From Azoarcus indigens (lineage in GTDB: Bacteria > Pseudomonadota > Gammaproteobacteria > Burkholderiales > Rhodocyclaceae): a DNA stretch of 64,000 nt. The DNA lies in assembly GCF_004361735.1 (NCBI RefSeq), contig NZ_SNVV01000001.1, forward strand, positions 372,001 through 436,000, in the 5' to 3' direction. This document shows, in pieces, positions 45,928 to 48,958 of the stretch (within the stretch, counting starts at the first letter, position 1; each line of letters begins with the position of its first letter). The notes under the pieces were generated by a model. The model did not search any database, had not been told where the DNA came from, and saw only the letters and a list, made by a program, of their open reading frames with translations. Position numbers and translations under genes: made by a program.

Positions 45928-46028
45928 AGCCCCCTCGGATATCCGCAATTGCATATCCCAAAAGGCAGAATGAAGAATGGCCGGCCGCCCGCTCCGGGCA
46001 TGAAAGCCTCTCCACCGAGGAAACGCCA

Positions 46029-47159
46029 ATGTCTTCATTCCGCCTTCGCATCGGTGCCTGCCTGCTTGCCCTGGCCCCTGCCGCAGCTTCTCTCGCTGCC
46101 TTGCCCGCCCACGCCAGGGAAATCGTCATTGGTCAGGTCGCTCCCTTTTCCGGGTCGCAGGCGGTTACTGGCAAGGCTATCCATGCCGGCGCCAAGCTCT
46201 ACATCGACCATGTGAACAGCCAGGGCGGCATCAACGGCCAGCAGATCCGGCTGGTGACCCGGGACGACGCCCAGAAACCGCAGGAAACCGTGCGGCTGGT
46301 GAAGAGCCTGGTGCAGGAAGAAGCCCCCGTGGCGCTGCTGGGCACGGTCGGAACCGACAACGTGAAGGCCTTGATCGACGATGGCGTGCTGGTGCGCAGC
46401 GCCCTGCCGCTGGTCGGAGCAGTGTCAGGCGCCAGCGCGGTCATCGGTGCGCCTTCCGTCTTCGTGGTCAAGGCCAGCTACCACGATGAGGTGAGCCGGC
46501 TGTTCGAGAAACTCTCCAACCTCACCATCACCCGGGTCGGCCTGGTTTACCAGGACGACGCGCTCGGCCAGGACGTGCTCGCCGGCGCCGACAAGGCCGC
46601 CGCCAGCCGCGGCATCCAGCTTCTGGCCAAAGTCGGATACCCGCGCAATACCACCGAAGTAAGTACCGCGGTGGCCGAGATGCTGAAAACGGAACCGCAG
46701 GCCATCTTCCTCGGCGCCACCACTGCTGCCGCCATCGAATTCGTCCGCCAGTACCGCGCGAAGGGCGGCCTGGCGACCCTCTACGGGCTTTCCATCATCG
46801 ACACCCAGCAGCTGCTGACCCAACTCGGGCCGGAGACCGCCCGCGGCTTCGCCTTCTCGGTGGTACTGCCGCTGGAAAGTCAGCACACCCTGGCGGTGAA
46901 CCGCGAGTACCTGAAGCTGAAGGCCGGCGCGCAAAACCCCGATCTGTCCGCCCGCTCCATCGAGGGCTTCATCGCCGCCAAGGCGCTGGTCACCGCCCTG
47001 CGCCAGAACAGCGCGGCAGGCAGCCCGCTGAAGGCGCTGCAGTCGATGCGCAACCAGGATCTGGGTGGCTATCTGCTGGACTTCGGCACGCCCGGCCGCC
47101 CAGGCTCGGCGCTGGTGGATTTTGCGATGATCGGCAGCGGCGGCCGCATCGTCCATTGA
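46029..47159 (+). CDS. ABC transporter substrate-binding protein (branched-chain amino acid type)
   Basis: This 376-residue protein has a signal peptide (MSSFRLRIGACLLALAPAAA, cleaved near AHA). A type I periplasmic binding fold of the LivJ/Peripla_BP_6 family follows: IVIGQVAPFSGSQAVTGKAI, GGINGQQIRLVTRDDAQKP, and VGLVYQDDALGQDVLAGADK. No permease or ATPase genes flank it, so it is an orphan binding protein. Such orphans may serve a transporter elsewhere or act as a sensor. The ligand is unknown. The ATG at 46029 is preceded by GAGGAAACGCC. Confidence 0.93.
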   Translation: MSSFRLRIGACLLALAPAAASLAALPAHAREIVIGQVAPFSGSQAVTGKAIHAGAKLYIDHVNSQGGINGQQIRLVTRDDAQKPQETVRLVKSLVQEEAPVALLGTVGTDNVKALIDDGVLVRSALPLVGAVSGASAVIGAPSVFVVKASYHDEVSRLFEKLSNLTITRVGLVYQDDALGQDVLAGADKAAASRGIQLLAKVGYPRNTTEVSTAVAEMLKTEPQAIFLGATTAAAIEFVRQYRAKGGLATLYGLSIIDTQQLLTQLGPETARGFAFSVVLPLESQHTLAVNREYLKLKAGAQNPDLSARSIEGFIAAKALVTALRQNSAAGSPLKALQSMRNQDLGGYLLDFGTPGRPGSALVDFAMIGSGGRIVH

Positions 47160-47192
47160 GGTCCGGGCCGGCAGGCTGCCGGCCACCGCGCT

Positions 47193-47600
47193 TCAGATCG
47201 CCAGCTTGATCAGTGGACGGAGCAACTCGATCTCCACCTTGTGCTCGGCCAGGCTCAGCTGATAAGCCACCGCGATCAGCCGCGCCCTCGTCGCCAAGGA
47301 CAGCTGCCGCGGCAGATTGGCCACCTCCAGCTCCACAGCCTCCACGCAGGCCTCCAGCAGTTCCACTGCGATCACCGGCTCGCCGGCCGCAACCTCCACT
47401 GCCCGCCGGCCAGTCAACACATACAGCACGTCCACGCCTTCACCGGCAACCGCCGCCAGGTAGGCCGCCCCAGGCAGGCGCTCCCCTTTCTCGTATTTCA
47501 ATTGCGCTTGCTTCTGCACCCCTGCAAGCGAGCCAAAGTCGGCCTGGCTCATACCCAGACGCAGCCGCTCGCTCCTGAGCCGTTCTCCGATGGAGCCCAT
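47193..47600 (-). CDS. XRE-family helix-turn-helix regulator
   Basis: This 135-residue protein has an N-terminal Cro/CI-type HTH (IGERLRSERLRLGMSQADFG, SLAGVQKQAQLKYEKGERLP, AAYLAAVAGEGVDVLYVLTG) similar to phage-type and genomic-island regulators. A C-terminal helical part (ELLEACVEAVELEVANLPRQ) is probably for dimerisation. It is divergent from a small unknown gene with a 102-bp shared control region that holds an inverted repeat. No integrase or phage structural gene is near, so phage origin is only a possibility. Confidence 0.9.
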   Translation of the reverse strand: MGSIGERLRSERLRLGMSQADFGSLAGVQKQAQLKYEKGERLPGAAYLAAVAGEGVDVLYVLTGRRAVEVAAGEPVIAVELLEACVEAVELEVANLPRQLSLATRARLIAVAYQLSLAEHKVEIELLRPLIKLAI

Positions 47601-47617
47601 TCACATCCTGAAAGAAG

Positions 47618-47646
47618 TTGACAGGTACGCATTCGCGTATCACTAT
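47618..47646 (+). promoter_or_regulatory. Candidate promoter with inverted-repeat operator in its spacer
   Basis: A perfect TTGACA (47618-47623) and a weak CACTAT (47641-47646) are 17 bp apart and read toward the 108-residue gene. The spacer contains TACGCATTCGCGTA (47626-47639), an inverted repeat with 5-bp arms. A bound XRE dimer there would block RNA polymerase. Confidence 0.5.
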
Positions 47647-47702
47647 CTGAATTACGTAAGCTATTTGGAATCCCCATCCGGAGTATTCCGTCCTGAACCG
47701 TC

Positions 47703-48029
47703 ATGCCAGAGCGCACGAACCTGAGCCCGAGCAATGTCGTTCAGCACGGGCTGCAACTCATGGCGGTCTATGCGAATTCCGCGGAATCCGCTGCCGCCCG
47801 TTTTCTGGAGGGCCGGATAGCCGATCTCGAAGTTGCCGCCCAGACCATAGAACGTGACGCGGCCGCATTGAATACGACCTACACCACCATTGCGCGTCTG
47901 CTCGAGTTCGCCAATGCGCCCAATGAGCATCACATCCGCCTGACGACGGCACGTGACGCCCACCGGGATCGTATGCATGCTCTGAATATCGGCATCTTTA
48001 GGGAATACCTGAAGAGAAGATCAGGCTAA
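47703..48029 (+). CDS. Small helical protein of unknown family
   Basis: This 108-residue protein (MPERTNLSPSNVVQHGLQLM) is hydrophilic and predicted mostly helical, with AAARFLEGRIADLEVAAQTI and NEHHIRLTTARDAHRDRMHA. No known domain was recognised, and there is no signal peptide or membrane segment. Base composition is less GC-rich than its neighbours. It faces the XRE gene across a shared control region, which suggests the XRE protein regulates it. A coding gene is supported by the good start region and the uninterrupted frame, but no function can be given. Confidence 0.65.
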   Translation: MPERTNLSPSNVVQHGLQLMAVYANSAESAAARFLEGRIADLEVAAQTIERDAAALNTTYTTIARLLEFANAPNEHHIRLTTARDAHRDRMHALNIGIFREYLKRRSG

Positions 48030-48182
48030 GCCTTTCCGCCCCCTTTGTCGGGGCACTGCTTCATACCCATCGATGATTTGGGCGCAGGCGCGCCGGGCCA
48101 CGTGCGCATGCAGACGCGGCGGGCAAGGAACGGATTATCCGCTCCCCGGCGGGAAAAAACCCTGCTGCCGCAGGGCTTCTCG

Positions 48183-48533
48183 TCAACGCTTGATGAACAG
48201 CCCCTGCTGACTCGCGAACCACGCCGCGAGATCCGCCATGTCCTGCCTGGACAGGGCCTGCACCTGCGCCGCCATGATTGGGTCTTTGCGCTTGCCCGAC
48301 TTGTAGTCATGCAAGGCCTGTAGCAGATAGCCTTCGTGCTGGCCGGCGATGCGGGGAAAATCCGCCGTCTGGCTGTTGCCATCAGCTCCGTGGCAGGCGG
48401 CGCATACGGCGGACTTCTCCTTGCCAGCCGCCGGATCGGCCGCCTCCGATGGCAGTACGTAAAGACAGGCCAGCAGCAACGCCGACAGCGCAAGCGCCGG
48501 CCTGGGGAGGACACTTCTGGCGAGGGCGCTCAT
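48183..48533 (-). CDS. Monohaem cytochrome c (c553/c4-like half)
   Basis: This 116-residue protein has a signal peptide (LALSALLLACLYVLPSEA), one haem site CAACH and the later axial Met region KRKDPIMAAQVQALSRQDMA. The fold is the small class I type with ADLAAWFASQ at the end, like one domain of cytochrome c4. It is periplasmic and probably shuttles electrons to an oxidase or reductase. Its start overlaps the stop of the upstream cytochrome gene (ATGA), so both are made together. Confidence 0.94.
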   Translation of the reverse strand: MSALARSVLPRPALALSALLLACLYVLPSEAADPAAGKEKSAVCAACHGADGNSQTADFPRIAGQHEGYLLQALHDYKSGKRKDPIMAAQVQALSRQDMADLAAWFASQQGLFIKR

Positions 48534-48850
48534 TTCCCACCCCCGTAGTAGGCGGCGAGATCGGCCATGTCCTGATCACTGAGTCCGCCGGCGATGCCCC
48601 GCATGGTGGGATGGCTGCGTGCGCCGCTCTTGTAGGCCTGCAGCGCCCGGACGATGTATTCCGGATGCTGCCCTCCCAGCTTGGGAACCGGGTACACCTC
48701 GGGAAAGGAAGTACGGTAACCCGGTATGCCGTGACAACCGATGCACATCGAGATTTTTCCTTTTGCCGCTTCGGCATTCCCTTCGGCCGCGTTCGCGGGA
48801 CTACAGGTGAGTGCCACGCCTAGGGCCAGAAGCAGATGTCGCTTGAGCAT
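48530..48850 (-). CDS. Monohaem cytochrome c (c553/c4-like half)
   Basis: Start chosen at ATG 48850, with GGAGGCTGC directly upstream, giving 106 residues; a longer frame to 48889 lacks a signal. A signal peptide (LLLALGVALTCSPANA) is followed by haem site CIGCH and the Met-ligand region RSHPTMRGIAGGLSDQDMAD. It resembles the following cytochrome, and the two look like the halves of cytochrome c4 encoded separately. The pair is divergent from a MoxR/VWA operon, with a 142-bp shared region. Confidence 0.94.
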   Translation of the reverse strand: MLKRHLLLALGVALTCSPANAAEGNAEAAKGKISMCIGCHGIPGYRTSFPEVYPVPKLGGQHPEYIVRALQAYKSGARSHPTMRGIAGGLSDQDMADLAAYYGGGK

Positions 48851-48958
48851 GCAGCCTCCTCCGTGTGGGTTGGATGCCGTTTCCGGCACCTTGGACGCAC
48901 CCGACTTCTTCTCGAACCCCGGTCCGGCGGCGGGCAGCGTACCGTTTAAAGCTAGTCC

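Follow-up and report, generated by a model that had tools for sequence, protein, structure and literature searches.

A chromosomal XRE regulator and its divergent 108-residue partner in Azoarcus indigens, best read as a phage immunity switch that was cut loose from its phage and kept, with a different gene as its target

In the B3-like phage Fc02, the repressor gene (repc) and ner diverge across a 106-bp spacer with the overlapping promoters pC2 and pE, and in phage KS10 the repressor gp13 (156 aa) is divergent from gp14, a DNA-binding protein of 63 aa. Chromosomes can also retain a repressor of phage type: in the DicA-DicC/dicBF system of the Qin cryptic prophage of E. coli, such a repressor controls a small effector operon. 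Judged by titles and abstract openings, and with queries that left out the type-strain name, no paper was evidently on the locus described below, and the TTM-91 genome paper does not use the words prophage or repressor in its main text.

We analysed a 64,000-nucleotide stretch of the Azoarcus indigens genome (contig NZ_SNVV01000001.1, positions 372,001 to 436,000), hereafter the window. A sequence-only reading had pointed to an XRE regulator facing a small frame, with a TTGACA promoter toward the latter and an inverted repeat in the promoter spacer. Both open reading frames are indeed present and divergent, with 102 bp between them by their coordinates, and the promoter and repeat are as described, the -10 element being weak. 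The features of the pair are as follows.

47193..47600, minus strand: XRE repressor gene, 135 aa, with an HTH at about residues 3-52, recognition helix QKQAQLKYE and a C-terminal region of about 60 residues
47618..47646, plus strand: promoter toward the 108-aa gene, with -35 TTGACA at 47618-47623 (6/6), a 17-bp spacer and a putative -10 CACTAT at 47641-47646 (3/6)
47624..47641, no strand assigned: putative operator GGTACGC-ATTC-GCGTATC, an 18-bp imperfect palindrome with core TACGC-N4-GCGTA at 47626-47639
47642..47670, minus strand: putative XRE promoter deduced from sequence, with -35 TTCCAA at 47670-47665 (3/6), a 17-bp spacer and -10 GATAGT at 47647-47642 (4/6)
47703..48029, plus strand: 108-aa protein gene (ORF), predicted to be all-helical, the presumed target of the switch

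This arrangement resembles that of the B3-like transposable phages Fc02 and PM105, in which an XRE-type repressor is divergent from its target (in Fc02, over a spacer of about 100 bp with overlapping promoters). The PM105 repressor is 65.7% identical to XRE over residues 1-67 and its spacer palindrome is not significant (p 0.262); the likeness to Fc02 is one of layout. Unlike in these phages, no Ner-like gene and no transposase are present here; the presumed target is the 108-aa protein, and the chromosomal block that holds the pair is free of phage genes. KS10 and BcepMu share the divergent layout, with a small DNA-binding protein as the partner, which is replaced here. On plasmid pCAR1, the XRE protein WP_017246034 (locus L069; 41.5% identical over residues 1-134) also has a small divergent gene, which differs in being annotated as a DNA-binding protein and in the absence of a matching operator; this pCAR1 pair adjoins an IS5-like element. 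By analogy, DicA control of dicBF is the nearest precedent for how the pair would work. The likeness is one of function; Lambda-like operators and the Cro-like DicC are kept in the DicA system. We give a probability of about 70% to the reading that the pair is a temperate-phage immunity switch, most likely Mu-like, that now stands alone in the chromosome with XRE repressing the 108-aa gene. If so, such a switch can persist in a chromosome as just two genes, acquire a new target and still share its DNA specificity with phages that circulate today.

The regulator scored 24.1 against HTH_3 (Pfam cut-off 23) and matched PHROG 8 (6.7e-12), PHROG 17822 and, by sequence, the dh434, 434 and P22 C2 repressors (E 0.0002-0.007). 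These matches place its N-terminal HTH in the 434/P22 repressor class. Matches to PADLOC were confined to the HTH region (best RmrA, 3.7e-6; HTH_VI and capH weaker), and no S24 peptidase was matched in Pfam, so that direct SOS self-cleavage is unlikely. With tblastn, XRE was matched in 32 of 50,697 phage records (Pseudomonas 17, Burkholderia 10), several of them annotated as repressors, including that of Beetrevirus PM105. These matches span the N-terminal half, and none of the 32 records covered 80% of the protein; among 72,556 plasmid records there were 33 matches, six of them over 80% of its length. At E 1e-12, matches were found in 35 of 297 family genomes and 9 of 369 class genomes (own genome counted), and IMG/VR yielded 16 XRE loci. 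By eye, the C-terminal pattern resembles those of L006, L007, the pCAR1 locus L069, L070 and L120, of which L007 and L120 are full-length relatives with a PHROG 310-like transposase in the fetched flank. Most of the aligned repressors that share the recognition helix differ from XRE in the C-terminal half, and a tree built with the repressors of 61 loci out of the 72 did not single out its nearest relative. By these sequence matches, XRE is a temperate-phage repressor and falls among the short ones.

To relate regulator and operator, 76 XRE loci were submitted and 72 kept (L018, L020 and L025 were without a match at 1e-3, and L146 repeats L145). The 70 loci other than our own were grouped by recognition helix, 14 having QKQAQLKYE as in the window and 56 another helix. 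The 14 same-helix loci are 13 IMG/VR viral contigs and one plasmid, and partly near-duplicates (L137/L140, L142/L143, L144/L075, L148/L151). Thirteen of them carry, at the same offset, an 18-mer with 2-6 mismatches from the window's operator, the best being GGTACGCATTTGCGTACC at L150, with two changes. The fourteenth, L145, has 12 mismatches at this offset and 6 once shifted by one base. With other helices, a single locus of the 56 came within 6 mismatches (L106, helix RKQAQLKYE); the 3,500 shuffled spacers (50 for each of the 70 loci) all had 7 mismatches or more. A regulator-operator-partner module with the operator inside the promoter, as the sequence-only reading had proposed, is supported. 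This comparison makes a convincing case that the XRE recognition helix pairs with the operator in the promoter spacer, and the repressor-operator part of our reading appears well supported by it. The claim of a repressor, an operator and a target is independent of the type of phage involved. The match also leads to an approximate rule at the sequence level, QKQAQLKYE with about GGTACKC-N4-GMGTACC, for predicting the phages that the host repressor would silence, and it opens repressor, operator and target to direct tests. A spacer palindrome as such is common but not universal among the XRE loci. The -35 matched in at least 5 of 6 positions at 60 loci, 58 of them not our own, and of these 58 the palindrome had p < 0.05 in 29 and p < 0.1 in 35. 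The transposase loci L159-L162 showed neither such a promoter palindrome nor an XRE match in the DNA examined.

At the locus itself, the palindrome alone is near chance against shuffled spacers (p = 0.087; the sister genome has the identical sequence, for which another run gave 0.065), so the operator claim rests on the comparative evidence. A search of the whole genome (5,464,470 bases) for GRTACGC-N4-GCGTAYC gave a single exact match. With up to two mismatches there were 87 sites, compared with 138 for a backward control, which does not indicate a regulon and fits regulation of this locus alone. Two near matches at C1:586435 and C3:351910/352156 were set aside, with no XRE match adjoining. 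Elsewhere in the genome, at L157:2436-2453, a palindrome GGTACTCAAGCGAGTACC resembles the operators of other phages of the group and has no XRE match nearby. Against our reading, the -10 of the 108-aa promoter is poor, and a generic sigma-70 consensus scan of the locus returned no promoter. A further point against it is that the GGAG before the 108-aa start codon is as far as 19 nt upstream. The putative -10 of XRE overlaps that of the 108-aa promoter, back to back. From its position, the 108-aa gene is presumed to be the XRE target. We propose that an XRE dimer on the 18-bp operator, between the -35 and -10, would block RNA polymerase and keep the gene off, and that XRE probably tunes its own level, its weak back-to-back promoter adjoining the operator. 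The 108-aa protein would then be made when the repressor is lost or diluted, for example upon entry into a repressor-free cell, under stress, or when an incoming phage titrates it or counters it by antirepression. A terminator scan of the locus found none, and a hairpin 3' of the 108-aa gene had z -0.7. Between the convergent binding-protein and XRE genes, a strong hairpin at 47160-47192 (-23 kcal/mol, z -2.4) is without a T run. Flanking repeats around the locus gave nothing informative.

In many phage relatives, the gene switched on would be Ner-like, with a transposase further on, where here a single 108-aa gene is found. By iterated search, a Ner-like divergent gene was present at 37 of the 72 loci and at 33 of 59 close relatives (approximate counts that include weaker members at E < 1e-3), and at neither own locus. 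The divergent gene matched PHROG 925 ("HTH DNA binding protein") at L137, L150 and L106, and PHROG 769 was a better fit at L136. Beyond the divergent gene, L137, L145, L148 and L011 have a PHROG 310 transposase, which in L011 also matches PF02914, and a PHROG 310-like transposase was seen in the fetched flank at 11 of 72 loci, an undercount given that many flanks were only 1.5 kb. Among the 14 same-helix loci, L144 lies beside an integrase and has a divergent gene that is Cox-like; L075, almost its twin and located on a Serratia plasmid, lies beside an annotated integrase, and L139 beside a primase. A Ner-like gene is missing at L145, L144 and L075. Phage Mana, among the XRE matches, is P2-like. 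The XRE relatives, as classified by these sequence matches, are thus Mu-like transposable phages and some integrase-type ones. The same helix and operator type in L075/L144 and in transposable phages suggests that the switch moves between phage types as a unit. In L145, an IMG/VR transposable phage with the same recognition helix, the first divergent frame (L145:2417-2908) encodes 163 aa without a PHROG match and is perhaps another swapped partner. At our own locus, neither a Ner-like gene nor a transposase was found 3' of the early promoter; the genes after the 108-aa gene are cytochromes c and a MoxR-type gene.

Such variation of the first divergent gene in related phages would fit a decaying prophage remnant without a present role, in which the deletion of a prophage spared XRE and one of the early genes, the 108-aa frame. 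The phage type of repressor and operator would also fit, as would the lack of a strong Mu-type transposase in the genome (best match to PHROG 310 5.6e-9, on another contig). We regard this as possible but unlikely, because both proteins have changed far less than expected under neutrality since the two carrier genomes split, and operator and spacer are intact. The second carrier is the sister genome G003, taken as Azoarcus sp. TTM-91. Between the two, XRE has 3 amino-acid changes in 31 substitutions, where 20.2 are expected under neutrality. Of the 13 substitutions in the 108-aa gene, 5, 0 and 8 fall on codon positions 1, 2 and 3; the codons changed are synonymous in 10 cases and non-synonymous in 3, where the overlapping antisense 105-aa frame reads 2 against 11. 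With substitutions placed at random, the neutral mean would be 8.8 amino-acid changes (p = 0.0008). The codon pattern indicates that the 108-aa frame is a real gene under purifying selection, and the partner is thus an unstudied gene under selection. The sequence-only reading would have given the frame up as spurious had the pair been absent as a unit in relatives and the frame not been conserved; purifying selection in the sole other carrier genome speaks for keeping it. The spacer differs at 2 of 102 positions (98% identity), compared with 4-11% for the seven genes measured. Among the other four spacers (3, 29, 11 and 9%), the one before the binding-protein gene is 97% identical, and the low divergence is no more than suggestive.

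Alternatively, the chromosomal XRE could confer superinfection immunity by shutting the early promoter of infecting phages with the same operator. The same helix and a similar operator occur in IMG/VR viral contigs, a similar pair is found in a genome of the same family (L106), and two other genomes of the genus, G001 and G002, have PHROG 310 transposases at 1.1e-181 and 5.5e-74. G003 matched this family at 6.6e-23, and the weak matches may be insertion sequences, since 6 of 14 control genomes matched the family as well. However, no phage carrying that operator turned up for this species, and the conserved 108-aa partner would be left unexplained, which makes this explanation rather unlikely.

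The view that the 108-aa protein belongs to no recognised family held up in profile, sequence and structure searches: the best E values were 0.22 in PHROGs, 0.051 in NCBIfam and 0.16 among PDB sequences, and Pfam and PADLOC gave no match at E 1. AlphaFold2 predicted helices at 9-71 and 73-107 (pLDDT 86.7, pTM 0.42), with uncertain packing. Foldseek searches of PDB and BFVD with this model gave no match with E below 4, and a VIA-align match to a tubulin-complex chain (Z 6.6) was uninformative at an rmsd of 12.9. The protein has a pI of 8.3 and no cysteine. Given the all-helix prediction and the lack of an enzyme or HTH match, it most likely acts by binding another protein. Relatives were sought in 61 related genomes, in genomes of the family (297), the class (369) and the phylum (398) and in GTDB contigs, and G003 alone was found besides the own genome; the conservation depth of the pair, present in two genomes only, is accordingly shallow. 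Weak matches at E up to 10 in 137 of the 297 family genomes were, the own pair aside, taken as chance. Matches in four genomes of genus g6 (E 0.002-0.05) were discarded as antisense to a conserved 149-aa frame, and when the 2,702 ORFs of 70 XRE loci were searched with phmmer, no match fell below E 0.44. The idea that the pair travels widely between replicons gained no ground, with a best E of 0.3 in phages, no match in plasmids and none confirmed by two pattern-based scans of IMG/VR, whose reach is close relatives.

A toxin-antitoxin-like pair, with a harmful 108-aa protein and XRE as its transcriptional brake, seems distinctly unlikely. Type II toxin-antitoxin pairs are usually co-transcribed, whereas these genes diverge, and searches of Pfam, NCBIfam and PADLOC linked the 108-aa protein to no known family of toxins with significance. 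The divergent repressor/target layout is in its favour, as is the precedent of DicA acting on dicBF in E. coli. We consider it very unlikely that the module both represses and answers phages, with XRE recognising the operator of invaders from this phage group, and operators or a Ner-like protein of an incoming phage pulling XRE off its own promoter and so inducing the 108-aa protein, which would act against the phage or through abortive infection. A defence role of the protein is possible; the "defence-type" label of the sequence-only reading found no backing in PADLOC, where XRE was matched through its HTH region only. A spurious small frame beside an unrelated regulator would agree with the absence of homologues outside one sister genome but is hardly credible, being already contradicted by the codon pattern, with no change at codon position 2.

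The pair lies in a segment inserted between a DUF1841 gene and cytochrome c genes, with the following features.

45928..48182, no strand assigned: inserted block of about 2.2 kb with the ABC substrate-binding protein gene, XRE and the 108-aa gene
46029-47159, plus strand: ABC substrate-binding protein gene (Peripla_BP_6) in the inserted block

Thirty of the 55 DUF1841 loci found were examined, and two carry the insertion, those of the own genome and G003. In L078 and L079 (same genus) and in L083, L084 and L095 (other genera), the cytochrome c gene comes straight after DUF1841. At the remaining 23, the surroundings were different or undetermined, with no binding-protein, XRE or 108-aa match in the DNA examined. 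The flanking genes being adjacent in five relatives supports, by sequence comparison, an acquired chromosomal block, in line with the island-like origin suggested earlier. The same reading had called the local sequence less GC-rich, which applies to the spacer (46%) and the 108-aa gene (58%) but not to the XRE gene, whose 65% is ordinary for the 61-65% of the stretch from 47 to 53 kb. The GC3 of the 108-aa gene is 0.66; of the eight genes around it, cytB has 0.68 and the seven others have 0.79-0.87, which is weakly consistent with a later arrival. The Peripla_BP_6 gene sits elsewhere on the chromosome in G001 and G002 and may have moved in this lineage. Downstream, at 48183-48889, two small cytochrome c genes with a 4-base overlap lie beside the MoxR-type gene, a trio also present in L078, L079, L083 and L095.
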